Shown here: positions 711-24,843 of the stretch, piece by piece
Layout of the letters: every line of letters starts with the position of its first letter
Numbering within the stretch: position 1 is the stretch's first letter
Assembly: GCA_030425045.1 (NCBI GenBank)
Contig: JAUHVL010000027.1
Location: forward strand, 1 to 42,804
Direction of reading: 5' to 3'
Source of the DNA: a bacterium
GTDB lineage: Bacteria; Bdellovibrionota; Bacteriovoracia; Bacteriovoracales; Bacteriovoracaceae
DNA length: 42,804 nucleotides
Notes under the pieces: generated by a model
Seen by the model: only the letters and a program-made list of their open reading frames with translations
Database searches by the model: none
Told to the model about the DNA's origin: nothing
Position numbers and translations under genes: made by a program

Positions 711-858
711 AAGAAAATCATATCAGCCTCAGTATATTTTTCTTTAAAAGGAATTTTTTACCGGCGAATAGTCTGTATTCATCGTACTTTTCACGTTTTT
801 TATAAGACAAACAGCACTTTAAAATTCTCTAACAAAAATGCCTTAAAAATAACTCAAC

Positions 859-1260: not shown

Positions 1261-1321
1261 CAAAACTCCTTTTAGCCTATTTTAATAAGAGAATCGAATT
1301 AGTCATTTGATTAATGTCATC

Positions 1322-1350
1322 TTGTTTTGTGATTTTGTTTTGTGATTTTG
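1322..1350. repeat. 13-bp tandem repeat, two copies
   Basis: TTGTTTTGTGATT occurs twice head to tail (1322-1334 and 1335-1347), followed by the first three bases of a third copy. It lies in the 236-base space between the CBS gene and the divergent lipoprotein gene. It may affect promoter spacing; function unknown. Confidence 0.7.
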
Positions 1351-1502
1351 CCAATAATTATTGCCGGCCCTTTAGTTCAAATGGATGATGACTTAGCGAT
1401 TAACAACCTGAAATTGCTTGAAAAAACTATTTTAATCAAGTTCTCGCCTCGTATTACCGAAGAGTTAACGTAAACTTTATCTAGTCTAAAATAGAGATGT
1501 AT

Positions 1503-2462: not shown

Positions 2463-2594
2463 CACACATGAGCAGTCATTTTGATACCAAGCTAAAGTGA
2501 TTCTATAAAATTTATCATTTATCCCAACCCGATGCTTATTTAGGGTAAGTAAAAGATGTGTACAGTTGTACTCATAAAAATCGGGGGTCATTTC

Positions 2595-3227
2595 ATGGTA
2601 AAAATTTGGACATTTGTTTCATTCTTTTTTCTTTTCAATACAGTTTCAGCAAGAACACTTACCTATGGTGAGGTCAATAAGATAGCTCTTGAAGCTATTC
2701 AAGGGTACTTTTCTTATATCGACACACTTGAAACAAAAGATATCGATAAATTCTGTCCAAATTATGATTCCTTAAGTGCAGATGAACGCCAACGGTTTTT
2801 TTCTCATCTGCTTACAAGTATTTCTTTTTTTGAATCGAGTTTTAAGCTCAACACTTCATTTAAAGAAAATAGTGGCGTTAGTAGCAAAGGACTTATCGGA
2901 CTTTCTTTTGGGGCCACTCAGCAAAAAAGTTATAAGAAAAATGGATGCTATATCATCAAAACGGCCGAAGATATTCTTGATCCACTTAAAAGTATGAGAT
3001 GTGGGATGGCCATTGTTGAGACATGGATGAGAAAAGATAACTACCTAGCAAATCAGTATACCAACTCTGAAGGAAAAAGAAGATACCAGGGTGCTGCCCG
3101 CTACTGGTCAACTCTAAGAAAACCTTATCAAGTCACTCTTAAAAACTATAATAACCAAGTGGTGACGATAGGAAAAAGACAAAAGGTAATAGATAAAGTA
3201 AAAGCTAATTTCTCTCAATGTTTTTAA
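2595..3227 (+). CDS. Secreted lytic-transglycosylase-like (SLT fold) protein
   Basis: A signal peptide (MVKIWTFVSFFFLFNTVSA) precedes a 190-residue mature domain. SISFFESSF carries a candidate catalytic Glu (residue 80), followed at 94-104 by GVSSKGLIGLS, resembling the S-x-G-L-x-Q block of SLT transglycosylases. Near the end, YQGAARYWSTL (164-174) resembles the usual aromatic helix. Such enzymes cleave the MurNAc-GlcNAc bond of peptidoglycan. ATG 2595 is chosen because the signal peptide begins there and GGGGG lies just upstream; the longer frame from 2556 adds an unlikely leader. The match is by eye, and the canonical Gln is Ser/Leu-like here, so function is probable rather than certain. 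Confidence 0.7.
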   Translation: MVKIWTFVSFFFLFNTVSARTLTYGEVNKIALEAIQGYFSYIDTLETKDIDKFCPNYDSLSADERQRFFSHLLTSISFFESSFKLNTSFKENSGVSSKGLIGLSFGATQQKSYKKNGCYIIKTAEDILDPLKSMRCGMAIVETWMRKDNYLANQYTNSEGKRRYQGAARYWSTLRKPYQVTLKNYNNQVVTIGKRQKVIDKVKANFSQCF

Positions 3228-3637
3228 GATTCAACACGACAACGGATACTCGTTTTTTCACCTTGAATACTGAGAGTTCCTGAGAAAAAGTTTTTATCTT
3301 TTCCAAAATTATCACCCTCATTGGTTACTTCGATGGAATAATCGTTAGCAAAGTCCCATCCATTTCCAGATGAAGAATCTGAGTCAAAAAGAACGGCTTG
3401 ATAACCTCCGAAGTCATCATAATCAAAAATTTTCATCTCTCCATAAATAGGTGTTTCTCTTAATCGACTTCCATCTAAGATTGTCATCCCCTCAATTTTT
3501 CCACGGTCTTCACCACGAATAGTTTTTAATGAAAAAGAATCAGGTGCTCCAATTCTATAACCTTTAAAAGTAGAACAATCCAAAGATAAGGCAAAACTTG
3601 AGCTTGTAAATAGTAAAAGGAAAAGTGTTGTTTTCAT
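3224..3637 (-). CDS. Small exported protein of unknown function
   Basis: A 137-residue protein with a clear signal peptide (MKTTLFLLLFTSSSFA). The mature part looks like a small beta protein with two cysteines (near 21 and 133) that could form one disulfide. Its ATG overlaps the stop of the 616-residue upstream gene by four bases (ATGA, 3634-3637), with GGGAG seven bases ahead, so the two are translationally coupled. Its last bases overlap the convergent SLT-like gene by four. No family recognised. Confidence 0.8.
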   Translation of the reverse strand: MKTTLFLLLFTSSSFALSLDCSTFKGYRIGAPDSFSLKTIRGEDRGKIEGMTILDGSRLRETPIYGEMKIFDYDDFGGYQAVLFDSDSSSGNGWDFANDYSIEVTNEGDNFGKDKNFFSGTLSIQGEKTSIRCRVES

Positions 3638-5484
3638 TCGTAATCTCCCGTCATAATTCGAAATAATATTTCAAAAGCAGTAAAATCAGTAATAGCTGGT
3701 GTGTTGAGGTGTACAATAATTTGCTCAACCGCTTCTGCCATAAGCTCAATATTAAAACCTGCTCGACCAAAAGCGGTAGTTCTAGAATTTAGAAGAATCT
3801 TCATGGCCTCTTTTTTCTTTGCATGTTTAATCGCAAAAGAGATATGCATGAGATCATAATCTCTATAACCTTTTTCATAAAACTCTTTCATCGCCTTATC
3901 GTAGGCTTTTTTGTTTTTAGAAATAACAGACTTTACAAATTTATCCGTCTCAACACGAGCAAACATCTCACGATAATTTCTCTTTTTATGATAATTTCGC
4001 ATTCCTCTACTGTGGTAAGGTTTCATCAGCCTTGAAATTTTTGAACTATCACTCATTTTTGTTACTAATTTTTTGGCATAAACGCTAAATCCTTTCGCTG
4101 CACCAAGAGCACCTATTTCCATAGCGATAATTAACCCTGACATCCATTTTTCTTTTCTCGCACGGGCCTTTTGATCTTCAATGAGAAGACTTGTTTGATA
4201 AGTCTCTAACTCGGTCCCTTCTACTCGGCTATGAAATCTCGTTTCTCGCTCTAGTTTTCTTCTATCTCCTGCTCTTTTTGCTAAATCTATGGCCGTAACA
4301 GTATTGAGTAGAATTAGACCAGCTAACCAAATACCTGCGGAAAAAAATCCTCCAGCAAAAAATAATAATCCAATCGTCAAAGGCATGAGATAACTATCTA
4401 AGGAAGAAAGACTTGCAGTGATATACCAACTGCTGGTAGCACGATCCATATTTTCAATTATCCAGCACAGATGACGAAAATATTCTGGTGTTTTTTGTAA
4501 TACATTTGCCACTGCTGTTGGTGAGGAAGCGAGGTACTTGGACAAAAGAAGGAGCCGCTCTTCAAATGCACTTGGAGCGATGTGTTTTGAATTCCCTTCA
4601 ATTGAACCAACGATATTATTATAATTAAGTTTGTCATACCATTTAAACTTAAAAAGTGACCTATGATTGAAATTCGTCCATTTTGTTGTCAAGTTTTGAA
4701 AGTGCTCACGAACGGCCCTTTTAACTTTCCAAGAGCGTATGGATGTTTTGTGAGTTGGGTTGATAAACCTTCTTCCTTTTAAATCATAGTCATCTAACGT
4801 AAACATCACTCCAAAGTGATTTTTAATTCGTGGAATATTAATTAAAAATCCAGGAAAAGAGCTTTTTAAAACTTGATAATGGTGCTGATATCCTGCCAGA
4901 TCGATATTTTGATTTTTATCTCGATAGTTTAAAATAGAGTTTAGGCCTTTGAAGTTGATCTCTAAATCTTCTTTGATCTCATCAATGGTAAATCTTTTTG
5001 TATGAAGCTCTTCAAGACGATCAACCATCTCTTGGGCATTTTTTATCAATTCACTTTTAGAAAGTGTCTGACATGCACTTTGACAAATAAACGTCACTGC
5101 CTTTCTCGCAATTCTCTTTGTTTCAAGGCGAAGAAGTGAATTCTTTAATTCTTTTGGCTCATAGATAAAATAAAGTGACTCAACGGTACTTTTTAAGGCC
5201 GCGAGAACAATCTCAGTTTCTATATCTTTTAAAAACTCATGAATGATTTCTAATCGAGAAGAGTTATCTACGGGGTCACCGGGTGCATAACCAAAACGAT
5301 TAAAAACATCAGCTCTGACATCGTAAGATGATAGAGGTGTGCCTAAGGCCTCAGTTAATCCTAAATAGCGCCCCATGGACTCATCATGAGTCATACGTGG
5401 ACATGACAGCGATTGGGCGGCCACTGTGTGATAAGGAAGTAAGATCACGGCCAACAACGCTAAAAATTGAGCTATAGTTTTCAC
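3634..5484 (-). CDS. Large exported protein with membrane segments, unknown function
   Basis: Unrecognised 616-residue protein. An N-terminal signal sequence (residues 1-23) is followed by a long helical, charged domain. A hydrophobic block at about 366-397 is probably a membrane hairpin, followed by a charged loop and a third hydrophobic stretch near 444-465. The C-terminal 150 residues are basic and helical. Four cysteines cluster in two places (134/138 and 28/340). The start is GTG; GAGGGG runs directly into it, unusually close, but no other in-frame start preserves the signal peptide and a stop lies five codons upstream. It heads a two-gene unit with the 137-residue exported protein. Confidence 0.75.
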   Translation of the reverse strand: MKTIAQFLALLAVILLPYHTVAAQSLSCPRMTHDESMGRYLGLTEALGTPLSSYDVRADVFNRFGYAPGDPVDNSSRLEIIHEFLKDIETEIVLAALKSTVESLYFIYEPKELKNSLLRLETKRIARKAVTFICQSACQTLSKSELIKNAQEMVDRLEELHTKRFTIDEIKEDLEINFKGLNSILNYRDKNQNIDLAGYQHHYQVLKSSFPGFLINIPRIKNHFGVMFTLDDYDLKGRRFINPTHKTSIRSWKVKRAVREHFQNLTTKWTNFNHRSLFKFKWYDKLNYNNIVGSIEGNSKHIAPSAFEERLLLLSKYLASSPTAVANVLQKTPEYFRHLCWIIENMDRATSSWYITASLSSLDSYLMPLTIGLLFFAGGFFSAGIWLAGLILLNTVTAIDLAKRAGDRRKLERETRFHSRVEGTELETYQTSLLIEDQKARARKEKWMSGLIIAMEIGALGAAKGFSVYAKKLVTKMSDSSKISRLMKPYHSRGMRNYHKKRNYREMFARVETDKFVKSVISKNKKAYDKAMKEFYEKGYRDYDLMHISFAIKHAKKKEAMKILLNSRTTAFGRAGFNIELMAEAVEQIIVHLNTPAITDFTAFEILFRIMTGDYE

Positions 5485-5540
5485 CCCTCTAACATACTAG
5501 AGAAAAGAGTTTGAAGGTGAGATTTAGAAAATTTTATAGA

Positions 5541-5564
5541 GGTGGTAGCATGAAAACTACCACC
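5541..5564 (-). terminator. Hairpin downstream of the 323-residue exported protein gene
   Basis: GGTGGTAG (5541-5548) pairs with CTACCACC (5557-5564) around an eight-base loop, just beyond the stop of the minus-strand gene ending at 5575. The following bases are AT-rich but have no clean T run, so termination is plausible, not certain. Confidence 0.5.
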
Positions 5565-5574
5565 ATATCATCAT

Positions 5575-6546
5575 TTACTGAGGTTGAGCTCTTGTATCAC
5601 TAGCATCGACGGGAAGGCCCTGTGGTCTTGGAAAAAGTGAATCATCTGCGGCCATTTGGGCAACGTAACCCCAGCTACATGCTTGTCCTAGCATCATTAT
5701 TTTTTGACTAGCATTTAACATGGGATTATTGACCACGGTATCGACACTCATTCCAAAGCCTCCCATACCGTATTGTCCCCAACCGGTTTGTCCTTCTGGT
5801 TGACCTTCAGAGAAACCACCTTCTCCTTCGAAAATCCCCCCATAAATTCTCTCTTCTTGATTACGTGGAGGATTATAGAGGTCATTATTTCTTGTTTTAT
5901 GAGCATCGATTAATCTTTGAGATTCTCGAATATACTCATCGTAACAAGACTTTAGTTGGGAAAGCCTGTTTGTCGCATCACTAGCGTTTTGATTAAATTG
6001 TCTGATATCTCGGCAAAGTTCGACATCGTAAGTAAAACTACGATGAGTATGATTATTTGTCGTCATGGCAGCAACAGAGCGGTAGGGAAAACATTTTCCA
6101 TTAACCATTTTTACATCAGTCACCACAACACTATCAGAGTTGACCATTGGTCCACCAAAACCAACACCATTTACAAATGGATTTACTCCTCCAATCATGC
6201 CCCATGGATTATTTGTTCCTAAACCACTTCTCGTTGGCGGAGCTCTAAAAGAATAAGACGTCTCAAACTGAGAAATCTCACCTCTTTCATTTCTTCTAAC
6301 AATAATTGTTTGATCGGGATAACCTTCATAGGCGGAGGGAACGGTAATTGTGGTGGTTCTTTGCTGAGCATTGACGGCCATATTCACTGTACTATGAGGA
6401 CGAATGGTCCCATCGTCAGTAATAGCAAAAGGAAAACCGTTTGTACTTATCCCCGGAGGTCGAAGAGAATTTTGACAATGAGTATAGTCAACCGAGTAAA
6501 CTTTAACCGCAAAAATTAAAAACACCAATAAAATGATATTTTTCAC
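5575..6546 (-). CDS. Exported Gly/Asn-rich protein, unknown function
   Basis: A 323-residue protein with signal peptide MKNIILLVFLIFAVKVYS. The mature half has beta-rich stretches, then a Gly/Gln/Pro-rich segment (about residues 230-275) containing GQPEGQTGWGQYGMGGFG. A handful of cysteines occur (near 24, 152, 178, 196, 286). No domain recognised. The start is GTG with a perfect AGGAGG five bases ahead. That ribosome binding site sits in the loop of a 7-bp inverted repeat, listed separately. It is followed by a hairpin and probably forms its own transcription unit in the minus-strand run of exported proteins. Confidence 0.8.
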   Translation of the reverse strand: MKNIILLVFLIFAVKVYSVDYTHCQNSLRPPGISTNGFPFAITDDGTIRPHSTVNMAVNAQQRTTTITVPSAYEGYPDQTIIVRRNERGEISQFETSYSFRAPPTRSGLGTNNPWGMIGGVNPFVNGVGFGGPMVNSDSVVVTDVKMVNGKCFPYRSVAAMTTNNHTHRSFTYDVELCRDIRQFNQNASDATNRLSQLKSCYDEYIRESQRLIDAHKTRNNDLYNPPRNQEERIYGGIFEGEGGFSEGQPEGQTGWGQYGMGGFGMSVDTVVNNPMLNASQKIMMLGQACSWGYVAQMAADDSLFPRPQGLPVDASDTRAQPQ

Positions 6547-6565
6547 ACAACCCTCCTAGTTGTGT
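6545..6565 (-). promoter_or_regulatory. Inverted repeat presenting the ribosome binding site in its loop
   Basis: On the mRNA strand ACACAAC (6565-6559) and GTTGTGT (6551-6545) form a 7-bp stem with a 7-base loop. The loop holds AGGAGG, and the 3' arm runs into the GTG start codon (6546-6544). This could modulate translation of the 323-residue gene. It is a sequence observation; regulation is inference. Confidence 0.4.
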
Positions 6566-6606
6566 CTATTTTAATACTGCTTCTCACTTATCTCTAGTGG
6601 TAGTCT

Positions 6607-8091
6607 TTACCCTTTTTTGAAATGCTTACTCATAAGCTCGGTTACGATCTCTTGGAATTCTTGATCATCTCGGTATTTCTCTACTGTTCTTTTTGCTTTC
6701 CACTTTGCAAACCTTGTCGCATTTTCATCTTCAAGAACTTCAAGAGCTTCAAAATACTTCTTCACTTCTTTATCACGCTTTCTATCGACGTTATAAAACT
6801 TTAATGTCTTGGCAAGACCGTTAACTGAAATTCCACCAACAGGTCTTTTAGAAGCTGTCTGTGGTAAAAAGATATAATCCATTCTTTTAATTCCCATAGA
6901 CTCACCTCTTTTCACGACATTTTTTACAAGCGACTCAAAAGTCACCCTAGGAATATACGTAGCACGAGGCTTTACAACACCATGGTAAAGCTGAAGCAAC
7001 ATATTATCAGAATGCTCAAGCTCTTTCGCTGGTGCCTTAAGTTTGCCTGAAATCAATGTATATTCGTGGGCACCACGAATTCCGATTGGCGCTAGAGTTT
7101 TAAAAGCAGAAGTTGAACAATTATACATAGGAGTAATGCCTAGGCCTTCTTCTGTTCTTACTCGGTGAAGATCTTCTTCCATAGCATCACGAACAGACTT
7201 TAACTCTTCTTTTGTTTTTCCATAAACTAAAACTGAATATGTTGGACGATAATTATTTTGACCTTGAATAAGATGACCAAAATAACTTGATAGTTCAGTA
7301 TTACCTGCAGGAACTTCTTTTGGACCTTCAAAGTAAAAATTAAAAATTTCACCATCAACTTCGAGGTTCTCATCAAGCTCGCCCATACCAATGGCAAAAT
7401 GTCCACCAACTGTATCGGGAGCATCACCTTGCCTACCACTTAAAGTAATAATAAGAACGGGGTCACCAGCTTTAGGAGTATGATTTTTTCCTGTCACAAT
7501 TCCTCTAAAAGGAATATCTTTTTGAGAGTTTTCGTTTTTAGGCATTTCTTTTAAAATATAACGAAGAGGCTTTCTATTAAAGGCGTCAGGTGCTTTAAAA
7601 GAGTTTTCTCCAGCAGCGAACAATCCTTTAACCATGATCGAATTAATTTCAAAAGATTCTTCACCAAGATTTCCATAGACGCGTACTTCTTTTCCAATAA
7701 AAGACTCTTTACTGATTTCATCAAACTGATTGTTATAGATTTCTTTAGTTCTTCCAAAATTTACTTTTTGTTCTCCAATAAAATACTGACCATCAACTTT
7801 TTGAAATAGTCCCGTAAAAGAGTCACGACCAGCAATAATCGTTGGAGTTTGCTCTGCAACCAGAGTATTATCAATCAGCTCACCCTCTACTTTAAAAAAG
7901 TAATTATCCCAACCAAGGTAAACATCATCCATCGTATAGAGAAATTCCGCTGGCATACTCATTTGATATTGATCAAAAACAATATTATCATTTGTTCCAG
8001 AAATCTTTCCTGTAAAGCTCGCCGCTTCAACTGAAAAAATGGTCTTAAGAAAAAATAAACCTAAAAGTAGTGTGGTTAATTTCATATGCAT
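6607..8091 (-). CDS. Exported protein, possible His/Cys hydrolase-like C-terminal domain
   Basis: A 494-residue protein with signal peptide (about residues 1-24). The N-terminal 160 residues look like a repeated beta domain. The central part contains VGGHFAIG (His231), and about 90 residues later YNCSTSAFK (Cys325). A His-then-Cys order with an N-C-[ST] motif recalls DUF4105/LRAT-like circularly permuted papain folds, but this is only motif resemblance. The last 100 residues are strongly basic and helical. AAGGA lies eight bases before ATG 8091, favouring it over the ATG two codons later. The gene belongs to the minus-strand run of exported proteins and is separated from its upstream neighbour by 27 bases, so the two may be cotranscribed. 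Confidence 0.7.
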   Translation of the reverse strand: MHMKLTTLLLGLFFLKTIFSVEAASFTGKISGTNDNIVFDQYQMSMPAEFLYTMDDVYLGWDNYFFKVEGELIDNTLVAEQTPTIIAGRDSFTGLFQKVDGQYFIGEQKVNFGRTKEIYNNQFDEISKESFIGKEVRVYGNLGEESFEINSIMVKGLFAAGENSFKAPDAFNRKPLRYILKEMPKNENSQKDIPFRGIVTGKNHTPKAGDPVLIITLSGRQGDAPDTVGGHFAIGMGELDENLEVDGEIFNFYFEGPKEVPAGNTELSSYFGHLIQGQNNYRPTYSVLVYGKTKEELKSVRDAMEEDLHRVRTEEGLGITPMYNCSTSAFKTLAPIGIRGAHEYTLISGKLKAPAKELEHSDNMLLQLYHGVVKPRATYIPRVTFESLVKNVVKRGESMGIKRMDYIFLPQTASKRPVGGISVNGLAKTLKFYNVDRKRDKEVKKYFEALEVLEDENATRFAKWKAKRTVEKYRDDQEFQEIVTELMSKHFKKG

Positions 8092-13004: not shown

Positions 13005-16000
13005 ATGGGTTTTACAAGGAAGAAAAACATTAATTTTTTGATGGTGGTATTGGGAATCTTTTCCTTACTCGCCACTTCGTGTGTGGACATGGCCTCACTT
13101 GGTCAATCGTCGTCCGGCCAATCACGAACGAAAAAAACATCAAATGGATCTGGTGGTAGTGGTGGCAGTGGGCCAGGCACTCCTAGTGAGCCTATCTTTA
13201 ATAACCAAGATATTGATTGGTTTAATGCCACTGATAAACTCGATGCGATTTTATCTCTCAATGAAAGTTTTAGTAGTATTATCACCTTAAGAGGCTCTAG
13301 TATTCATGACTTTCTTGGAAGAAATAATAATTTTAATAAGCAGTTTTGTTTGGTTGTTTCCTATAACGGGTCAGCGTTTAAAAAGAATCTCCGTTTAAGA
13401 GCAGCGCCTATTAACTTTTTAAACTTTGCCAAAGGTCAGTACGAACGTATTTTAAGAATTGATTTTAACGATCGTGATATCAATACTGCTGTTTGTACAG
13501 GGACGGCCTTTCAGATCAATACCAACTTAAGTACAGCGGCTACGGTTGCTGATGGCGATAGTGCTTTTTTACTTAATGAAGTTTGTACGACTTGTACCGG
13601 AACAATTGTTTCAACCAATGTTAGTCTCTATGAAAGTGATAGTGGTATTTCAACGAGTAATAGAATCGATGATAATGAACTTTCCCTTAATAAATTTACC
13701 GTGAGAATTGATACCTCTTCAACCATTATTGATGATGTTGGTGGAAGCTGTAGCCAAAGTGCCTGTCAGGCAAAGGGGGCCAATTATTGTTGTCTCTCAG
13801 GTCAATGTGTTCGCGATGGTGATTTAAAGCCGGGAGCGGAAACTCTTCCCGAGTATGATCAGGCCATGGCCGATGTCGATGATGATCCCAATAATTTTAA
13901 ATTTTGGAAAAATATTTTCTTTGTTTGTGGATCGACTCCTCCTCCTGTTGAACCCGAGCCGGAGCCGGTTCCCGATCCAGAAGAGCTCGCCGATATTATC
14001 TTACAAGATAAACTGAAAGAGTATTATTGTTTAGAAGAAGGGAAAAAAGAGACTCCTGATTTTGCTACTGCCAATGTTTGTGAACCTAGCTTTGATCAAA
14101 CGAGTTACGAGTCAGTAAGAGCAACCGTTTGGGCAAAATGTGGATGTAATGCTGTTCCTTTTCCAACAGATCCTGACGATCCGAGATGTCCAGACTTTGG
14201 ATTAAAATTAGTACAAGATGTCTCTGGTAAAATTACGGATGTGGTTTGTGATAACCCTGCTCCACCAACACCAGTGCCTGAACCCTTTCAAGAATTACAA
14301 TTGGATATTCCAGCAAGAACGGCACCTCACCGGTTTTATCGTTCTGACAATGGAGAATCTGTTGATATCAACCTCAGTAAAAAAGTTTTTTATAACCTAC
14401 CTGATGGTGTAACCGCTGAAGGAAGTTTCTTTAGTTATATCGATGAAGTCAATAAGAAAGAACCAGATAGTGGAAGCTTTAATATGAACGCTATAATGGG
14501 GCAATTTACAGTAGAGCTTGATCAGGCAATTCCAGCGCAAACTGTTGATGTTGAATTTAATACCAATTATATCATCTCAACAACACCACAAGGTTTTTTC
14601 ACTCCCTGTGCTGAATGTAATAAAGACTATTGGTTTGAATCGTTTACGGCATGGCCTTCAAGTGTTTCTGGTATGGGTGTCTCTGCCACCAGAGCGACGA
14701 TGGGTTACTCAACCAGTAGAACTGATTTTAATAGTAATACTATTCTTGCAAATTACGAGGATAATATTTTTGGTCGAGCTTGTTTTGTTCCTCCGACAAT
14801 GATTCCTTTTAGTCATAAGAAAAATGCTGATCTCACGACGCAAAGACAAGCAAGGCTTGCCACTCAAGCGGCCCTCTTCGCAAACGGCTATCAAAGAGAT
14901 TGGTATGGTTTTAACAAAGGTGCTCTCATTGGGTCTTTTGATGGAGTTCGCTGGTTTGCTATCGGTGGATCGCGAAGAGTCACTTCTTCTAGTAAAAAAT
15001 TATATCTTGCGATCAATGCTCCTTTTGCTGACCTGGCAGAAAGAAGTAGTATCACGGTTCAAATTACAGAAAATAATAGTAATACCAACGCTGCAGATTT
15101 TGATTACGATCCCAACCTTTCTCCCAATGATCCCAATCAAAATTCAGGGGCCACATGTCAGCACTTTCATAGCTGTAGTAGCGACTCGGATTGTGTTAGT
15201 AAATTAGGTTGGGAGTATATGTGTGAAAACACCACCATGTATAAATCGGTATGGCCTGTTTTTGATACAAATGGAAATGAGCTCGTCAATGACGAAAATC
15301 CGGCGATTAAATTTAGTAAACTTTTACAAGGTGGCCTTGCCTCTGGTTCAAAAAATAGATGTGTCTATCGCGGTTCCGGTTCTGTTTGTAAAAAAGATTT
15401 TTCAACTCTAGATGATAATAAGAGAAGACTTTTTACTTGTGCTCCTAACTTTTACTGTGCTGATTTAGATGAAAATGCCTTTAACAGAGAAGTAGCAAGA
15501 GAGCCAAAAGAAGAGGGAGTCTTTCAATTAGGTAGAGAGGCCAATGTTCTTGGTAGACCACTTAATTATGTCGGAGGTGGACATGGATTAAGTCAGGCCA
15601 TCATCGATAATATCAAACATAATGCAGCTCTCTTTGATGCTGACGTGGATGATTTTGGAATTTGTCGACCTGGAAAACAATTAGCGGATACCTATGCTAA
15701 TCAACATCAGGCTAAAGATAATAGTTTAAGAACAGATTATATTAATCAAATATCTTCTTGTAATTCAGAAGCGACTGGGGATACTCGTGTAAGAACCTGT
15801 CCTATCTTTGAAGATCAAGAAGACCAAGCTGTTAATAAAGGTGATTATATTTTTACCGCTGATCTCACTAAGGCCCATAGTCAAAATATGTGTGGTCAAG
15901 AGTCTCAGTATAATGACGGCACCACCGATCGAAACACTTTCGAATTTTTAGAATTAGGAGCACTTAATTCACTTTCTAGCATCGATAAAGATATTAAAGT

Positions 16001-18260
16001 ACTCGCTCAAGATGCCTGTTTTCGAAGAGCAGGATCAATTTGTCATACCGACCTCGACTGTTCTCCTAATAAACTTCACGCTGAAAAAGCGGAAAGTTTC
16101 GGTCGAACACGTTTCGGTGGAACAGATGCAGAAAAAGAATTTTGGGAAGAAGCGCTGATCTGTGGACAAGCGGCAGAAAAACCAACCATCCAAGATCCTG
16201 AGTACTTTAATTATGATATGACTCAAAACAGATGTTGTCGTGCTGTTGGAAATGACTTCACGATGTATACTCAAGACGACGACAGCATCATCACAGATCA
16301 CTCTAAAGTTAATACAGGACTAAATGTCGCTACCTTCCCATTTAGTGATCCAACAGCTGCCGGAAGATATTCTCGTTATGCCGGCGTCTCAGGTGTTGAT
16401 GGAAACCCTGCAGCTGACCCTAATACGGTTATCAATCAGGTTCCTATTGTTAATGATAATTCGGCTCCGAAGGCCTTCCAGTGGAAGACTTTAAATGAGA
16501 CAGGGAAAAAGAATTGCTGTGGTGGTGGCTGGATTAGAAAATTTGCAGATGGATCAAAAGATTGGTCAGTCAATCGCTTCAACCCAGATATTACAAAGTT
16601 TGCTTGTTTAAATTATCAAAGTGAAATTCCCTTTTCGACTCCTGATCATGTCGATAACGATAATTATATTCAAGACATTGGACGTCTCTGTCGAGCTCCA
16701 GCAGATAATGGTTGTGTACAAGAAAGTATGCCTCTTCCTACAGATCGAAGTGTCACCAACCCAACCGCTTTAGCGACTACAACGGCGACACTAAGTACGA
16801 GACCTCTTGATGATAATAATGCCGATCTCATTTTATTATCTTCAGAGGTTCCCTATAACCCTATCCCATTTATTAATAGTCAGCCTATTAATCAAGACCT
16901 CGATGATTTAGATAACCGTTATACTTTCTTTCCAAACCCAACTTCTTATATTGCCGTTAGTTTTTATCTTCCCATTTATATTGGTTATATCGATACCGAT
17001 ACTGATGGAGATGGAGATGGAGCAGCAGATACAAGTCCAAATAATGGTATAAATGATTATTTTGATACTCCACGAGGTGGTACACGATTTACAAATGACG
17101 ATGCCGCGAGTGGTGCAACAAACAACCTCATCGATGTTCGTATTCGTTACTTTTTTGAAGATACTAATGGGATTGTCACAGATGCAGGAACGTCAACACC
17201 CACTTTTGTTCAAAATTGTGACATGAGATCAAGCAACCCAAGAAATCTCCTCGCCGATAATGAGTGGTGTATTGAAGAGAGAGATGGGCATACTGTTTTC
17301 CATGCGAAAGCACTCCCTACAGGAGATCTTGGTCCTGAACTCGGTGGTAATGACTGGACATTCGCCTTTATTGAAATTGATTATAATATCCAAAATAGAG
17401 ATGATTATATTTACAACACGTTGGCAACAGATACCGATCAAAGTGGGATGAAAGCCGGAAATGCTCTTTATTATCTTACAAAACTTGGTCGCTTTGAATT
17501 AACTGGAGTACCACAAATTTGGTATGAGCCAATCTATTGTAATTCAAATAAATCAAAATTAGTTGAAGGACTTTTTGATTTACCAAATCAAACAAGAACG
17601 GCATTTGAAGCTGCTGCTTATGCTAATAATAACGCCGCTGTCAATGGTCGACAAACCTATGAAGTTTATGATGCCGCTAATACGGCCGATAGTGAGGCCA
17701 ATCCCGGCGACTTTGTGGTGCAAGAAGATAGTCTCGCAACGGAGCCTATTTTTAAAAGCTCGGAGTTTCGTTGTTGTGTAAAACTCAATCAAAAAACTAG
17801 TTCGTCTGATAAATGCTGTTCAGGTTATTCTGTCACATCAGGTGATGATAAAATTTGTAAACTTCCCAAGGGAACAAACGTAAATGTTTATTTTAATAAG
17901 TTTATTTCAAGTGAAGGGATGGACGATGGAGACTTTCCTGAAGATCTCGTAGGACTCACTGATGATGATTTTATTGCAGAGACAGGTGAAATTAAATTAA
18001 ATGAAACCGCTTATAGTAAACTAGCTAATCTTGGTGCTCAATTTTGTGAAAATGGTGCTGTTAGAAATGGTGGCGCTTTTGGATTTTTCTTTGGAGAGCC
18101 TTTTGCCACCTACGTTCAGGTTGGTGATTTTGAGGCCAGCTTCCGCTATGGTATTTTAGATAATCAAAACACCAGTATTGATTATGATGATCTCAATGAC
18201 ACAGGAACTCCCGTCTTTAATGCTGGATTTAAATGGGATCACCATCTATACTGCGAATAA
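13005..18260 (+). CDS. Giant cysteine-rich lipoprotein (1751 residues)
   Basis: A basic N-terminus and hydrophobic run end in LLATSC (Cys26), so the protein should be lipid-anchored and probably surface exposed. A Ser/Gly linker follows (GSGGSGGSGPGTP, about 47-60). The mature part holds about 52 cysteines, including five CC pairs (CCLSGQC, RCCRAV, NCCGGGW, RCCVKL, KCCSGY) and a recurring C-x(2-4)-D-x-D-C pattern (CSSDSDC, CHTDLDC). Pro/Glu linkers (EPEPEPVPDPEE, PAPPTPVPEP) lie near residues 315 and 420. An Asp-rich loop, DTDTDGDGDGAADTSPNNG near residue 1330, looks calcium-binding. This modular, disulfide-rich build suggests an adhesin or structural surface protein, but I recognise no named family. 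GAGG precedes the ATG. The methyltransferase starts on the base after its stop. Confidence 0.85.
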   Translation: MGFTRKKNINFLMVVLGIFSLLATSCVDMASLGQSSSGQSRTKKTSNGSGGSGGSGPGTPSEPIFNNQDIDWFNATDKLDAILSLNESFSSIITLRGSSIHDFLGRNNNFNKQFCLVVSYNGSAFKKNLRLRAAPINFLNFAKGQYERILRIDFNDRDINTAVCTGTAFQINTNLSTAATVADGDSAFLLNEVCTTCTGTIVSTNVSLYESDSGISTSNRIDDNELSLNKFTVRIDTSSTIIDDVGGSCSQSACQAKGANYCCLSGQCVRDGDLKPGAETLPEYDQAMADVDDDPNNFKFWKNIFFVCGSTPPPVEPEPEPVPDPEELADIILQDKLKEYYCLEEGKKETPDFATANVCEPSFDQTSYESVRATVWAKCGCNAVPFPTDPDDPRCPDFGLKLVQDVSGKITDVVCDNPAPPTPVPEPFQELQLDIPARTAPHRFYRSDNGESVDINLSKKVFYNLPDGVTAEGSFFSYIDEVNKKEPDSGSFNMNAIMGQFTVELDQAIPAQTVDVEFNTNYIISTTPQGFFTPCAECNKDYWFESFTAWPSSVSGMGVSATRATMGYSTSRTDFNSNTILANYEDNIFGRACFVPPTMIPFSHKKNADLTTQRQARLATQAALFANGYQRDWYGFNKGALIGSFDGVRWFAIGGSRRVTSSSKKLYLAINAPFADLAERSSITVQITENNSNTNAADFDYDPNLSPNDPNQNSGATCQHFHSCSSDSDCVSKLGWEYMCENTTMYKSVWPVFDTNGNELVNDENPAIKFSKLLQGGLASGSKNRCVYRGSGSVCKKDFSTLDDNKRRLFTCAPNFYCADLDENAFNREVAREPKEEGVFQLGREANVLGRPLNYVGGGHGLSQAIIDNIKHNAALFDADVDDFGICRPGKQLADTYANQHQAKDNSLRTDYINQISSCNSEATGDTRVRTCPIFEDQEDQAVNKGDYIFTADLTKAHSQNMCGQESQYNDGTTDRNTFEFLELGALNSLSSIDKDIKVLAQDACFRRAGSICHTDLDCSPNKLHAEKAESFGRTRFGGTDAEKEFWEEALICGQAAEKPTIQDPEYFNYDMTQNRCCRAVGNDFTMYTQDDDSIITDHSKVNTGLNVATFPFSDPTAAGRYSRYAGVSGVDGNPAADPNTVINQVPIVNDNSAPKAFQWKTLNETGKKNCCGGGWIRKFADGSKDWSVNRFNPDITKFACLNYQSEIPFSTPDHVDNDNYIQDIGRLCRAPADNGCVQESMPLPTDRSVTNPTALATTTATLSTRPLDDNNADLILLSSEVPYNPIPFINSQPINQDLDDLDNRYTFFPNPTSYIAVSFYLPIYIGYIDTDTDGDGDGAADTSPNNGINDYFDTPRGGTRFTNDDAASGATNNLIDVRIRYFFEDTNGIVTDAGTSTPTFVQNCDMRSSNPRNLLADNEWCIEERDGHTVFHAKALPTGDLGPELGGNDWTFAFIEIDYNIQNRDDYIYNTLATDTDQSGMKAGNALYYLTKLGRFELTGVPQIWYEPIYCNSNKSKLVEGLFDLPNQTRTAFEAAAYANNNAAVNGRQTYEVYDAANTADSEANPGDFVVQEDSLATEPIFKSSEFRCCVKLNQKTSSSDKCCSGYSVTSGDDKICKLPKGTNVNVYFNKFISSEGMDDGDFPEDLVGLTDDDFIAETGEIKLNETAYSKLANLGAQFCENGAVRNGGAFGFFFGEPFATYVQVGDFEASFRYGILDNQNTSIDYDDLNDTGTPVFNAGFKWDHHLYCE

Positions 18261-19376: not shown

Positions 19377-19414
19377 TTAAAAGGTGATTTAAAGATCACC
19401 TTTTAATTTTTTTT
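19377..19414 (+). terminator. Strong rho-independent terminator
   Basis: TTAAAAGGTGAT (19377-19388) pairs with ATCACCTTTTAA (19395-19406), loop TTAAAG, followed by eight Ts. It ends the 60-residue gene and overlaps the 3' end of the convergent SGNH gene. Confidence 0.88.
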
Positions 19415-20597
19415 CAAGCGCTTTCCAATCACAACGTCTATCTAAAAATTCATACTCGGCAATAATAAGTTTCGCTATTTTATCTAGAAACATACGTTGA
19501 GCTGTTCTGTTGAGATGACAACAACCGTCTATATAAGTTTCTTCAAATGAGCGTGAAAAGACGCTAGTGAAGTCATAAAGATTAAAGTGATAATGATCAA
19601 CTAGTCTTTCAACTTCTTGTTTATAAACCGACACATAATCATCATAGTGTCCAAGAAGATGTGGCTTGTAAAATTCGATATACTTTAGTTCATTTGATGT
19701 TACTTTTTTCCCAAATGCAGGTATCGGCTGTTTTATATAAAGTGACTTAATGTTTCGATCTTTTAGCATATTTTGCTGAGAACATGACTGAAGTAACCAA
19801 AAATTATAATTATTAAGAAAATAGTCCTTTGAAAGTTTATTCAGCTCTGGTTTAGTATTTTTTGAAACGAAAGAATAATAGTTATATATTTGATTAAGAA
19901 AAATATAATCAATCGTCTTTCTTGTTTTAAGCAAGTACTGATCTTTTTTAATTCGTTTAAGTATTTCTTTTTTTACTCCATTTAGTTTCAACAAAATGGG
20001 AAGTCTAGATAATCTTTTTAGACCACTAAAATAGATATTTGAAACCGCATGCATAGGGTAATAATGAGGGTGCTGATGATAGAAATAGGCCACTTCATTA
20101 GATCCTTCGATATTGATACTCAAATCAAAGAATTGTGAAAACATGTTAGCAATATGGATACTTTGAGGTTGCCTTAATCCTCCTGCAGAGAAATTGATCA
20201 CCTTAATTTTCTTATCTCGAAATAGTTTATTCCCTCCAAGATATTTCTCAAGTGTTCTTTCTGTTTTATTAACTTCATAAATACCGTGAGCAACAGAACC
20301 TCCAAAGATAGCGATAATAAACTCATTTTTATCACCTTTAGGTTTTCTGGTTAATAAGTTGCGTTCGAAGTCATTATTACTATTGATAAAGCCAAAAAAA
20401 GGATGTGGTTTTAATGAAGTATTTTTTTTCATTAAATGAGAGACAAATTGAATACTATCGAGATGAAAAGATAACTGCCCATTATAGTGTAATGTCACTT
20501 GATTTTTAATAAATGGGAAAAGAAAATATAAAAAAACCTCCAAAAATAAAAATGAAAACAATATATTGAGAGTAACAACTTTGATTTTATTTTTCAT
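19389..20597 (-). CDS. Membrane-anchored SGNH/GDSL-type hydrolase
   Basis: A 402-residue protein with one N-terminal membrane helix (about 6-30) and the rest outside the inner membrane. The SGNH blocks are present: FGGSVAHG with nucleophile Ser101 (block I), INFSAGG (block II), GSNE at 165-168 (block III), and DGCCH with Asp357 and His361 (block V). The catalytic set is therefore complete. Relatives remove or transfer acyl groups on envelope glycans, lipids or proteins; the substrate here is unknown. The ATG directly follows the TAA of the PEGA-like lipoprotein gene, so it is the last gene of the kinase-FHA operon. Confidence 0.82.
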   Translation of the reverse strand: MKNKIKVVTLNILFSFLFLEVFLYFLFPFIKNQVTLHYNGQLSFHLDSIQFVSHLMKKNTSLKPHPFFGFINSNNDFERNLLTRKPKGDKNEFIIAIFGGSVAHGIYEVNKTERTLEKYLGGNKLFRDKKIKVINFSAGGLRQPQSIHIANMFSQFFDLSINIEGSNEVAYFYHQHPHYYPMHAVSNIYFSGLKRLSRLPILLKLNGVKKEILKRIKKDQYLLKTRKTIDYIFLNQIYNYYSFVSKNTKPELNKLSKDYFLNNYNFWLLQSCSQQNMLKDRNIKSLYIKQPIPAFGKKVTSNELKYIEFYKPHLLGHYDDYVSVYKQEVERLVDHYHFNLYDFTSVFSRSFEETYIDGCCHLNRTAQRMFLDKIAKLIIAEYEFLDRRCDWKALEKKLKGDL

Positions 20598-22028
20598 TTA
20601 ATATCTAAACCAATCTCGAATCATTGTTTTCAGAGAGGGGAAGTAATAACCAAAACCAAAAGATGATTGAATCCACTTCTCAAGTTCATAATAACCAGGT
20701 CGCCCCACAGGACTATTAATTTCATATTGAGTTAATGAGGCCACAAAATACCATTTTTCATCAAAGAATCCGACATAGTTTAGGTTAAACCTTTTGGATC
20801 TTTTTACTTTGTTTTCACTCATTCCTAGAGAGTCTTGCATATTTAGGTTCCCCATCCCGTAGCCGGCCTCTAAGCTAAGAGCTCCCCACGGAGTATGCCC
20901 GGTAAGGCCAATATTATAAGTGGCCATAAAGGCAATCATTTGGGTTGTAAAATTATCATTTTGAGTTTGCCATGCATTTAACTTAAACATGGGAAAAGTG
21001 GTGAAGTCCCAGTCCCAAGAACCATAGAATTGAGGATGAAGAACATTGGCCAAACCAAAGAATGTAACTATTCTAGGGACGGCCTCTGGATGCTCATCTG
21101 TATCCTGACTATTGGCCGAGCTGACTGAGAACTGATCGGCATTATAATAAACCTTAGGATTTGTTAGGTAGGTAAACGTTAATGTATTGGGTACCAGATT
21201 AATAATTCCTATTAAAGTATCAATATACGATCTTTCAACGGTGGCCTCTTTTGGTAAATCAAACTCATTAAGATATTCTGTATTTTCTTCTTGCCCCGTA
21301 AAGAGATCATAAAGAACAGGTTTAATTTTATGACGATTCTTATTTTTACCTCTTTTTAAAAGTAGTGAATGAGTAGCGTTTAGCTCAGAGGCAATTTTGT
21401 TTAAATTTTCTTTTTTCACTTCAGAAAATGAAGATGCCGACTGATTTGTGATTCCTCGAAACTCCATTAATTTATAACTTTTATCGAGATCAATTATTTT
21501 ATCTTCTGTTTTTACCCGAGAAAAATAATTGTCTAACCAGTATTGCCTAACAAGCTTACTTACTTTGACGTCTTTATCAAAAAAAGGAAGTACTAAAACA
21601 TTTTTTTCTTTTAAAGTCGTTTTAGGAAGAAGATCCCGTCCAACAAAAATGGGCCCTTGACATAAAAAAAGATGGCCAGAAATCGCATCGATAGCTAGCG
21701 AAGCTCCACCAAGTATTGCCCCACCTATTCCAAAAAAAGCAGGAACAACTCCTGGAACTAAAGACTGCCCCCAATCGATCGGACATTTATAAAGCTCTCG
21801 ACTAGACCAATTCCCCTCTGACTCGGGTACTTTAAAAATAAAATATTGTTGGTGTTTTGGTTTGATATCATAAAAAAAGGGTGTCTTTCCTAAAAGTTTT
21901 CCTCTTTGATCATAAACAAGTAGCCCTCTAGGATTTGAATCAAAGGGAACAATATTCTTACGGCCACCAATAGTTCCGCAGGCCGAAAGAAGAAGATTTA
22001 ATAAAAGAAGAGTGACGAGAGACTTCAT
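20598..22028 (-). CDS. Lipoprotein with PEGA-like N-terminal domain and beta-rich C-terminus
   Basis: A 476-residue protein. LLLSAC (Cys17) is a good lipobox. Residues 33-75 (NPRGLLVYDQRGKLLGKTPFF) resemble the PEGA surface domain, with the typical G-x-TP turn. A Gly-rich hydrophobic stretch near 90-115 resembles the membrane-seeking part of related lipoproteins. The C-terminal 230 residues have alternating aromatic strands (WDWDFTTFPMFKLNAW, LSLEAGYGMGNL, FGFGYYFPSL), suggesting an outer-membrane beta-barrel-like domain. Its start overlaps the FHA gene stop (ATGA). It sits between a kinase/FHA pair and an SGNH enzyme, so an envelope-spanning role is plausible. Confidence 0.72.
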   Translation of the reverse strand: MKSLVTLLLLNLLLSACGTIGGRKNIVPFDSNPRGLLVYDQRGKLLGKTPFFYDIKPKHQQYFIFKVPESEGNWSSRELYKCPIDWGQSLVPGVVPAFFGIGGAILGGASLAIDAISGHLFLCQGPIFVGRDLLPKTTLKEKNVLVLPFFDKDVKVSKLVRQYWLDNYFSRVKTEDKIIDLDKSYKLMEFRGITNQSASSFSEVKKENLNKIASELNATHSLLLKRGKNKNRHKIKPVLYDLFTGQEENTEYLNEFDLPKEATVERSYIDTLIGIINLVPNTLTFTYLTNPKVYYNADQFSVSSANSQDTDEHPEAVPRIVTFFGLANVLHPQFYGSWDWDFTTFPMFKLNAWQTQNDNFTTQMIAFMATYNIGLTGHTPWGALSLEAGYGMGNLNMQDSLGMSENKVKRSKRFNLNYVGFFDEKWYFVASLTQYEINSPVGRPGYYELEKWIQSSFGFGYYFPSLKTMIRDWFRY

Positions 22029-22939
22029 GATTGAAAGATTAATCCTGCATTTTTCGCTTTTACCAAGATTCTCTCTGATTCAATGAGTTCAGGCGCCTTA
22101 GGCTTAATTGTATTCATTTTTTGATTTTCAATCTCTGCCCAATATCGCGTTTTCGTTTTATCGTGATTAAACGTCATATCACTTAAAAGTTGATTGCAGC
22201 TCCATTCATCGAGAGAGGAATAACTGGTGCCATTTTTTGATCCAAAATCCTCTATGATGACTCTCCCTTTTTGCTGAAAAGAAAGCCTCAAGTGGCCTGG
22301 GAGGTCCTTTGTGGGACTACTTAAAAAAGGATCATTAAGAAGAAGAACGACAGCATAAGGACCATACTCCTCGCAATACTTCATCATATCTTTCTCTTTA
22401 ACCTGACGGTTACCGGCAATGATAACATTGACCCACTCCCCTGCTCTTGCCAGTGTCAATGTCTTCAAGTCAATTTCGAGATGATATAATTCGTTAAAGA
22501 GTTCAAAGTAAATGACAAATCTATTAAATTCAGGATGACTCTCCCCTTTTTTAACCCTTAAGAAATGCTCCATCCCAGGAGAATAAAAAAGATCGGCCCC
22601 ACCGTCCACAATTTCATTACGGCCAGAAACAGAAAGGTTATCTTTTCCTGAAATTTGATATTTATAAAACCGCACCCTCTCAGAAAATTCCTCTTCCATC
22701 GTTTTTCCAAGAAAAATACCTTGTTTATTAAAAGCAAACTCATCGACCTCACTTTCAGTAACAAGGTTTTTCAAATCTCTTCTTAATGCTTTTTCAATAT
22801 TTTCTTTTTCATCCAAGTCCATTTTATTTTTAATCCATGTTTCAACTTCTTTTCGCTCGAGGGGTCCCCAAGATTTTAAAACATTAATGATACTTGTATA
22901 CCTTTTAAAGGTGGAGTGTTCTGTATAAGTTTTATTCAT
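22025..22939 (-). CDS. FHA-like protein with possible winged-helix N-terminus
   Basis: A 304-residue cytoplasmic protein with no signal peptide. Residues 227-240 read VIIEDFGSKNGTSY, the D-x-G-S-x-N-G-T hallmark of FHA phosphothreonine-binding domains. The usual upstream GR and S-x-x-H blocks are weak; a degenerate version (SSPTKDLPGH) is visible near 207-216. Residues about 10-65 have the helix spacing of a winged helix (INVLKSWGPLERKEVETW, then KALRRDLKNLV), so DNA binding is possible. Its ATG overlaps the kinase stop by four bases (ATGA), implying coupled expression and suggesting it reads the kinase output. Confidence 0.72.
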   Translation of the reverse strand: MNKTYTEHSTFKRYTSIINVLKSWGPLERKEVETWIKNKMDLDEKENIEKALRRDLKNLVTESEVDEFAFNKQGIFLGKTMEEEFSERVRFYKYQISGKDNLSVSGRNEIVDGGADLFYSPGMEHFLRVKKGESHPEFNRFVIYFELFNELYHLEIDLKTLTLARAGEWVNVIIAGNRQVKEKDMMKYCEEYGPYAVVLLLNDPFLSSPTKDLPGHLRLSFQQKGRVIIEDFGSKNGTSYSSLDEWSCNQLLSDMTFNHDKTKTRYWAEIENQKMNTIKPKAPELIESERILVKAKNAGLIFQS

Positions 22940-23925
22940 TTCACAATTCTCTTAAAAATATTTTTCGTTTCGTTATTTATTTTGAATTTTTTGGTTTTCT
23001 TTTGTTGACCTTTCTTAATCTTTTTTCTTTTCTTATTTATTCTTTGTTTTTTCTCATATTTCACTTGCTTAGAGAGCTTACTTTTATTTGTCATCTTAGG
23101 CTTTGTCTCACTCGAGTTAAAAAATAAAGCAGCAACAAAAAGTGCGGAGATTATAGTAAGGCCAACAACCCATTTTTTTCGATCACCTTCTTTAAGCTCA
23201 ACTGATTGTGTTTTAAATTGATTCACTTGTTTAACCACTTCATCAATTTTTATTCGTGCCTCAACCATGGGTAATTTCATTGAAGCTATCAAGAAATCTA
23301 AATCAACAGCAAAACCGAGAGACTCAGCATTATTTTTAATCTCATCTAAAATAATACCTAGAGAGTAAATATCGTTATGAAGACCAAACTCTTTTTCATA
23401 AGCTTCAGGCGCCATATAATCGACTTTTCCTACCGCCTCATCAATCAATTGAAATTCTTGTTCACTCCTAGCAAGAGAAAAGTCGATGAGATAGATGCAC
23501 GATCCATCATTTGAAACTAAAATATTATCCGGTGATAAATCAAAGTGACCAAGGTGGTAATGTTGGTGAAGAGTATAAACACTTCTCGAAATTTGATCGA
23601 TTAAGGAAAAAGCAAATTCAGAGCTTAGCTTTTCACCAAGACCTTCACACTCATCAAGAATGCTTCTTAACGTCTTTCCTTCAATAAAATCCATCACAAG
23701 AAAGGGAATACCGTCGGCATCATTTGAGATTTGATAAACCTTTGGTGAGATCTTTGCTTTGTTTATAAGCTGTAACTTTTCAAATTCATTTTCAATTTGT
23801 CTGATTGATTGCGCTGATTTATTTTTAGCCTCTTTGATTACTTTTGTCGCACTACTATCTAAAAATACATCAGTGTATTTTCCCCGACCAAGTAATCGAT
23901 GTTTTTGCAACGTACTGCTTTGCAT
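22936..23925 (-). CDS. Membrane Ser/Thr protein kinase with atypical active-site motifs
   Basis: A 329-residue Hanks-type kinase. Visible elements: glycine loop LGRGKYTDVF (12-21), ATP-site Lys31, catalytic loop HFDLSPDN (127-134, catalytic Asp129, Asn134), metal motif DFS instead of DFG (148-150), and APE (172-174). HFD replaces HRD, making it a non-RD kinase. A single membrane helix at about 252-269 is followed by a roughly 60-residue extremely Lys/Arg-rich extracytoplasmic tail with no PASTA or other sensor domain. GGAG lies eight bases before the ATG, and a TTGACA promoter lies about 50 bases upstream. It heads the kinase-FHA-lipoprotein-SGNH operon. Confidence 0.88.
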   Translation of the reverse strand: MQSSTLQKHRLLGRGKYTDVFLDSSATKVIKEAKNKSAQSIRQIENEFEKLQLINKAKISPKVYQISNDADGIPFLVMDFIEGKTLRSILDECEGLGEKLSSEFAFSLIDQISRSVYTLHQHYHLGHFDLSPDNILVSNDGSCIYLIDFSLARSEQEFQLIDEAVGKVDYMAPEAYEKEFGLHNDIYSLGIILDEIKNNAESLGFAVDLDFLIASMKLPMVEARIKIDEVVKQVNQFKTQSVELKEGDRKKWVVGLTIISALFVAALFFNSSETKPKMTNKSKLSKQVKYEKKQRINKKRKKIKKGQQKKTKKFKINNETKNIFKRIVK

Positions 23926-23949
23926 TACATGAGCTCCAATAATTTCCCT

Positions 23950-23978
23950 TATTTAGCCACAAGGGCACAATGTGTCAA
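23950..23978 (-). promoter_or_regulatory. Promoter of the kinase-FHA-lipoprotein-SGNH operon
   Basis: On the minus strand TTGACA (23978-23973) is followed after 17 bases by TAAATA (23955-23950). The -35 is perfect, the -10 weak. The implied leader to ATG 23925 is about 20 bases. Confidence 0.5.
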
Positions 23979-24042: not shown

Positions 24043-24843
24043 ATGAAGCAGTTAGTCATTACGTTATTTTTAATATCCAATGTAGCCTTGGCAGCGAAGA
24101 ACAGTAAAGTTGATGGGAAGACGATCAATATCGATGGCCATTACAACGAAACCAAAAATGTTCAAGTTGATGAGGAGTTAAAGTCTCTAAGAACAGAACT
24201 TAAAAACGTTAAAACTCTTAAAAAGAATTACCAAAAGAAAGAGAAAATGTACGGTAAGCTCGTTCAAGAATCTGAAGGTCTAAAAGAAAACTTCGAAAAC
24301 TATCTCGAGCAAAGAGATGAGTGGAATGATGCTATTGGTGGTTACAATCAACTTTTAGAATGTACTAAAAGTAAATCAGCAAAAGATTGTCTAAAGAGAA
24401 GACCTAAAAAAAAAGCTATAGATCGCGGTACTAGAAGACAAAAACAATCACGAAACTATGCCCCTTCTAACTTTGAAGATGACCTAGCTTTTGATGATAT
24501 GAATATGGATTCTGTAACCATGTCTAATTCAGCAACATCGAGACCTGGACTTGGTAATTATATTAGAAGTTTCGATCAAAGTGTTGCTGGCAAGGCGATG
24601 GACTTAAACCTTTGTTATAAACAATCCCAAACAAAGCAACAGGGTACATTGCCCGTGATGATGAAAGTTGGACCTAATGGCAGACTTGATCATTTAACGT
24701 TTATCGATACCACTCAGATTTATAATAGGTATTTAGTAAATTGTTTGACGAGAGTTCTTTATAGTATTAACTACCCTCGTACTCCAAACAATAAACTTGT
24801 CAGTATTAAGAAAATTTTTACATTTGAATTACATCATATCTAA
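24043..24843 (+). CDS. Exported protein with AgmX/PglI (TonB-C-like) C-terminal domain
   Basis: A 266-residue protein with signal peptide MKQLVITLFLISNVALA. Residues 45-95 are a charged coiled coil. A basic region (118-138) and an acidic Ser/Asn linker follow. The C-terminal 80 residues match the AgmX/PglI pattern: LCYKQ, then GTLPVMMKVGPNGRLDHL, and a second Cys in LVNCLTRVL, then YPRTPNN, with conserved Cys191 and Cys234. In Myxococcus such domains occur in gliding-motility and periplasmic bridging proteins. Here there is no N-terminal TonB-type anchor, so it is probably periplasmic. AAGGAG precedes the ATG and a strong terminator follows. It diverges from the kinase operon. Confidence 0.75.
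   Translation: MKQLVITLFLISNVALAAKNSKVDGKTINIDGHYNETKNVQVDEELKSLRTELKNVKTLKKNYQKKEKMYGKLVQESEGLKENFENYLEQRDEWNDAIGGYNQLLECTKSKSAKDCLKRRPKKKAIDRGTRRQKQSRNYAPSNFEDDLAFDDMNMDSVTMSNSATSRPGLGNYIRSFDQSVAGKAMDLNLCYKQSQTKQQGTLPVMMKVGPNGRLDHLTFIDTTQIYNRYLVNCLTRVLYSINYPRTPNNKLVSIKKIFTFELHHI

Follow-up and report, generated by a model that had tools for sequence, protein, structure and literature searches.

The window analysed here, a contig of 42,804 nucleotides (JAUHVL010000027.1) from a 3.97-Mb Bacteriovoracaceae genome in 91 contigs, carries on its minus strand four contiguous genes encoding a membrane Ser/Thr kinase, a protein with a forkhead-associated (FHA) domain, a lipoprotein and an SGNH-like protein. 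As judged by sequence comparison, this four-gene set is not a conserved system, and the conserved unit is the pair formed by the kinase and the FHA protein, which recurs across the phylum. A smaller, better supported two-gene unit replaces in this way the four-gene hypothesis of the original prediction, which had been drawn from the letters of the window. The interpretation favored here, with some reserve, is that the membrane Ser/Thr kinase would signal to a dedicated winged-helix FHA regulator in a manner resembling PknH-EmbR, the lipoprotein and the SGNH protein being possible targets or co-expressed cargo. The four genes are the following:

22936..23925, minus strand: kinase gene (gene 1), 329 aa
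22025..22939, minus strand: winged-helix and FHA gene (gene 2), 304 aa
20598..22028, minus strand: lipoprotein gene (gene 3), 476 aa
19389..20597, minus strand: SGNH-like gene (gene 4), 402 aa

Conserved pairing of the kinase and FHA genes

By using a two-row profile of the FHA protein, members of its family were found in 25 of the 369 genomes of the phylum, including metagenome genomes labelled Bacteriovoracaceae. A 17-row alignment of the family proved too diverse for a contig scan, and the four-row alignment used in its place recovered only loci already known from whole genomes. In the pairing survey, for which 24 further FHA-gene neighbourhoods were mapped, 14 of the 23 other genomes have a kinase on the same strand immediately beside the FHA gene, versus 0.05 expected from the kinase counts per genome (1-11) and an assumed 950 genes per Mb; these cases cover 8 of 15 genera (tail probability about 3e-15). 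Both gene orders occur, with the FHA gene first at loci L062, L063 and L085 and the kinase first elsewhere; this speaks for a functional link and against a single frozen cluster. There are also two near misses: at L064, which lies at a contig end, one gene stands between the two, and at L084 the kinase is a divergent fragment. The intervening gene of L064 (1462-2649, genome G111) looks CsgG/FlgO-like by eye. On this comparative evidence, conserved adjacency across genera strongly supports a kinase-FHA partnership. Literature searches, with partial journal coverage, found no paper on this kinase-FHA pair.

The window groups with six species of one genus in a single clade (support 100/99), and in all six of these sister-genus species the pair faces a divergently transcribed gene whose product is 38-41% identical (BLASTP) to that of a gene of the window not mentioned in the original prediction:

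24043..24843, plus strand: divergently encoded exported protein, 266 aa, ending in an AgmX/PglI (TonB-C-like) domain, clade-conserved partner of the pair

The domain assignment comes from a match to myxo_SS_tail (E 3.4e-6) that lies under the curated cut-off. Full-length close relatives of the protein are confined to that genus (seven genomes) and to the genome of the window; in the seventh sister-genus genome the kinase runs off the contig edge. By its position and sequence, this neighbour is the conserved third component in the clade of the window.

Membership of the pair in an anti-phage or conflict system was also considered and seems very improbable. The distribution of the FHA family is patchy, the kinase domains match the PD-T4-6 and MAD6 models of PADLOC, and in genome G036 the pair (L036) is found on a small contig of 12.9 kb (C74) together with a ZorD-like SNF2 helicase/Mrr nuclease gene and a transposase-like gene (38-3565 and 6359-7528). 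However, the PADLOC kinase models match through the general kinase fold and the FHA protein matched none of the models. Moreover, in the six sister-genus species the chromosomal surroundings of the pair are constant, an acyl-CoA dehydrogenase gene forming part of them.

Architecture of the FHA protein and its kinase

At the sequence level, the FHA domain of the window protein is found by Pfam (PF00498) over residues 216-239 with an E-value of 0.012 and 16.5 bits, below the curated cut-off of 20.7, and a Pfam FHA match at E up to 1 is obtained in 9 of 17 family members, the best one at 0.00045. Since these matches are sub-threshold, structure prediction was needed. When the family profile was compared with PDB sequences, 3gqs (an FHA domain) matched at the C-terminal end (E 0.01) and Fur at the N-terminal end (E 0.04), both marginally. 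The model of the window protein has a pLDDT score of 60 overall and displays a clear N-terminal winged helix (Nur, Z 9.4, root-mean-square deviation (rmsd) 2.1 over 70 residues). The model of the relative L087 reaches a pLDDT score of 78.9, and its residues 120-295 match FHA domains, including 3gqs (Z 10.6, rmsd 2.2 over 96 residues), that of the mycobacterial regulator EmbR (2ff4, Z 9.2, rmsd 3.0 over 95 residues), Nbs1 and MDC1 (Z near 10) and the DgcB FHA domain (6hc1, Z 9.2), while residues 7-98 match winged helices of the Zur, Nur, Fur and PadR type (Z 8.8-9.7). Z-scores near 9 to 10 are modest, and their weight rests on the many members of the same fold that cover each domain. In these models, proteins of the FHA family consist of two domains, a winged helix at the N-terminus followed by a C-terminal FHA fold. 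The FHA-like character originally assigned to gene 2 is borne out by the L087 model, and less well by that of the window protein; the winged helix had been missed. The FHA protein has no membrane span, and in the L087 model there is no helical repeat domain (TPR-like, as in a BTA domain) between residues 7-98 and 120-295.

Two stretches of the window protein correspond to FHA motifs:

22226..22252, minus strand: EDFGSKNGT, FHA Asn-Gly-Thr loop, residues 230-238
22292..22324, minus strand: LSSPTKDLPGH, FHA Ser...His motif with an insert, residues 206-216, with an invariant Ser

The window protein retains both the Ser, which is invariant in 17 of 17 aligned family members, and the Asn-Gly-Thr. 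According to the family alignment, from which the Asn states were read, this Asn is found in 15 of the 16 members linked to a kinase and in 1 of the 9 without such linkage (Fisher p 7e-5). The window protein is read as a probable phospho-dependent regulator and a probable DNA-binding protein.

The winged helix admits another interpretation, in which it would be a protein-interaction module and the FHA protein a scaffold that links a complex in the cytoplasm or the envelope to the kinase, a role FHA proteins have in type VI secretion or gliding machinery. Non-DNA-binding winged helices such as cullin WHB are indeed among the structural matches, for which reason DNA binding is put forward as a prediction for the family. 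The loss of part of the FHA loop in the sister genus is in line with a scaffold as well, and the AgmX/PglI tail found both on the divergent protein and on the sister-genus kinase of L066 (E 1.4e-5, under the curated cut-off) recalls Glt gliding proteins (PMC3169522). Against this, many of the top winged-helix matches are bacterial transcription factors (Zur, Nur, Fur, PadR, BlaI, MecI), and at the loci looked at, the surroundings of the pair contained no recognisable gliding motor or secretion genes. A scaffold role is on these grounds unlikely, and regulation of transcription by the FHA protein is the reading retained here.

Regarding the partner of this regulator, the product of gene 1 is a predicted Ser/Thr protein kinase with the full set of catalytic residues. 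The Pfam Pkinase match (E 1.1e-24) and a single membrane span at about residues 251-270 bear out the membrane kinase that had been called at this position. The cytoplasmic kinase domain precedes the span, which is followed by a tail of 57 residues, 25 of them K/R and 3 D/E. In an alignment with the kinases adjoining FHA genes, the window kinase keeps the catalytic Lys, the helix-C Glu, the HxD Asp, the Asn and the DFx Asp; its motifs read HFDLSPDN and DFS, the latter with Ser in place of the Gly of DFG. No Pfam PASTA match was obtained in the 57-residue tail, and the NCBIfam PknB_PASTA score of the protein is 80.4 versus a cut-off of 450, which places it outside the PASTA-type PknB kinases. 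The idea that the sister-genus kinases might be pseudokinases was discarded, as their catalytic residues are retained.

The part of the kinase beyond the membrane varies among lineages. The AgmX/PglI-type domain in which the L066 kinase ends is absent from the window kinase. On the other hand, the kinases of L036, L062, L063, L065 and L071 share a C-terminal periplasmic domain with conserved Cys positions that gave no Pfam match in the one kinase scanned (L036). A profile of this domain found matches in just 5 of the 369 genomes, every one of them a kinase adjoining an FHA gene. These observations are compatible with a phylum-level family of dedicated kinase-regulator pairs, laid out like two-component systems but built with Ser/Thr kinases, in which each kinase would combine an exchangeable periplasmic sensor (the Cys-bearing domain in several genera, the AgmX/PglI tail in the sister genus) with its own winged-helix FHA transcription factor. 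This wider proposal is put forward tentatively, as a possibility that falls somewhat short of even.

The lipoprotein and SGNH genes as probable local members of the operon

From the distribution of their relatives, the remaining two genes of the run look like lineage-specific operon members and local additions. The product of gene 3 presents the lipobox LSAC, whose Cys is invariant in nine relatives, followed by a PEGA-like N-terminal part and a beta-rich C-terminal part. The lipoprotein assignment holds, and the PEGA-like domain ascribed to it is recovered in only one of the nine relatives (E 0.0021), another single match among the nine being to an outer-membrane barrel (E 0.037); neither PEGA nor a barrel is matched in the window lipoprotein itself. 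Lipoprotein matches occur in 12 of 59 related genomes, and several genera of its family have a full-length relative. The closest of them (39%; L029 5995-7443, genome G020) is split into two ORFs (open reading frames) by an in-frame TAG.

The product of gene 4 is N-terminally anchored, and its GGSVA, Gly, EGxNE and DxCCHxN motifs are largely invariant in four relatives, among which the catalytic Ser, Gly, Asn and Asp/His of the four blocks are invariant. The complete catalytic motif set described earlier is upheld by this alignment, and gene 4 encodes a putative SGNH-like hydrolase. The 402-aa protein resembles the SGNH hydrolase superfamily in these motifs and differs from it in giving no SGNH-type Pfam family match even at an E-value of 5. 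PDB sequence searches with the lipoprotein and SGNH families returned chance-level matches only. SGNH protein matches were found in 4 of the 59 related genomes, with full-length relatives in three genera. One of these relatives (L038 2503-3780, genome G026) sits in a gene run including a probable sugar-nucleotide dehydratase (by eye), which hints at polysaccharide modification.

The four ORFs and their overlaps were confirmed as initially reported, with 4-base ATGA overlaps between genes 1 and 2 and between genes 2 and 3 and a TAA-ATG abutment between genes 3 and 4. It had also been claimed that all of them are transcribed from a single TTGACA promoter. The hexamer is present at 23978-23973, its -10 element (TAAATA) agrees with the consensus in just 3 of its 6 bases, and the site upstream of the kinase gene is absent from the list given by a promoter scan, which detected fewer promoter-like sites in the DNA (11) than in shuffled DNA (18.2). 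One strong TTGACA promoter was dropped as a candidate with no support from the scan, and a common promoter for the four genes remains a weak, unconfirmed proposal. The end of the operon is marked by a further feature:

19377..19406, no strand assigned: terminator-like hairpin (13 pairs, then a T-run) where the last gene ends

The tight coupling of these genes had suggested stoichiometric partners, and the conserved adjacency sustains that idea for the kinase and the FHA protein. The lipoprotein and SGNH relatives are scattered: none lies beside a kinase or FHA gene in the neighbourhoods covered, and conservation of all four genes together was rejected on this lack of linkage. For genes 3 and 4 this is the outcome that the original prediction had itself named as refuting it. 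These data bear directly on a scheme in which the four genes build one envelope machine, where the kinase and an FHA adaptor would control a lipoprotein-SGNH module acylating envelope polymers with no transcription step. It can be argued for this scheme that the reading frames overlap or abut across all four genes, that the SGNH catalytic motifs are complete, and that at L076 an FHA-family gene is overlapped by the gene directly upstream (4280-5554, genome G142), whose product has PEGA-like repeats and a beta-rich end as seen by eye. However, no lipoprotein or SGNH relative is linked to kinase-FHA genes in any neighbourhood examined, both genes are missing from beside the pair at the six sister-genus loci, and the FHA protein bears a winged helix. 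A four-gene machine is accordingly judged improbable. Control of envelope acyl modification by phosphorylation, as first envisaged, finds no direct support, and the winged helix points to gene regulation instead.

Elsewhere in the window, the plus strand at 13005-18260 encodes a Cys-rich protein of 1751 aa whose N-terminus is lipobox-like; a methyltransferase gene comes next, with no gap between the two.

A proposed kinase-to-regulator pathway and its known analogues

The pathway proposed for the pair would start with the kinase, whose variable periplasmic part may sense the state of the envelope. Once active, the kinase would phosphorylate itself or its FHA partner, and the FHA domain could then dock on the phosphorylated kinase or on a phosphorylated residue of its own, the residue read in this way being a Thr of either protein. 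Docking would in turn alter DNA binding by the winged helix. In the clade of the window, the divergent AgmX/PglI-tail protein may act as a periplasmic partner or target. The lipoprotein and the SGNH-type hydrolase would have joined the operon in this genome, most simply as targets or co-expressed envelope cargo.

Several observations weigh against this pathway. The pocket Arg, present in 16 of 17 aligned FHA-family members, aligns with a Gly in the window protein and seems displaced there by two residues (IIAGNR). The FHA half of the window model is poor (3gqs probability 0.75, Foldseek E 0.24), the confident model being that of L087. The association between the Asn and kinase linkage is confounded with descent, because linkage is clustered on the tree (3 changes versus 7.5 in shuffles) and the unlinked members belong mostly to other families; eight or nine FHA loci, again mostly of other families, have no adjoining kinase. 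In the sister genus, which keeps the kinase, the Gly-Thr is gone from the FHA loop, so binding may not be phospho-dependent in the clade of the window. The window kinase itself has a short activation segment without Thr, in addition to DFS instead of DFG. The profile of the Cys-bearing domain was trained on the same five sequences that it matches, so it shows absence elsewhere and gives no independent confirmation. Finally, a winged helix need not bind DNA, and no inverted repeat that might serve as an operator was found in the intergenic region of the window, nor one common to the loci between the kinase and the divergent gene, where an AGGGCA-type string is loosely shared by eye only.

Bacterial Ser/Thr kinases are usually regarded as few and pleiotropic (PMC4601284). 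A gene pair that recurs as one kinase with one FHA regulator would clearly exemplify dedicated wiring; it would also open kinase-to-gene signalling to testing in a group to which predatory bacteria belong.

Among known systems, the Agl-Glt gliding machinery of Myxococcus resembles these loci in that GltG/PglI and GltJ/AgmX (PMC3169522) carry the type of C-terminal domain seen on the divergent protein and on the L066 kinase, and in that FHA and TonB-like modules recur together. Unlike in Agl-Glt, the FHA protein here lacks a membrane span, the membrane protein is a kinase and no gliding motor genes were recognised nearby. In the same broad bacterial group, DgcB of Bdellovibrio bacteriovorus, an FHA-regulated diguanylate cyclase (PMC6733907), also relies on FHA-based signalling, and its FHA domain is among the structural matches; its output is a GGDEF domain, whereas that of the present family is a winged helix. 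EspM of mycobacteria likewise unites FHA and helix-turn-helix (HTH) domains within one regulator, in the reverse order, with an N-terminal FHA and a C-terminal HTH (PMC11005418). The closest working analogue appears to be PknH-EmbR of Mycobacterium tuberculosis, in which EmbR, an FHA-domain transcription factor, is phosphorylated by the membrane Ser/Thr kinase PknH in a reaction that requires FHA residues of EmbR (PMC4601284). EmbR belongs to a different phylum, has an OmpR-type N-terminal domain where a Fur/PadR/BlaI-type winged helix is predicted here, and differs further in the BTA domain, not seen in the L087 model, and in the insert found here between the FHA Ser and His. Both systems would nevertheless join a membrane Ser/Thr kinase to a regulator whose DNA-binding-type domain is N-terminal and whose FHA domain is C-terminal, and the FHA domain of EmbR is itself one of the structural matches of L087.

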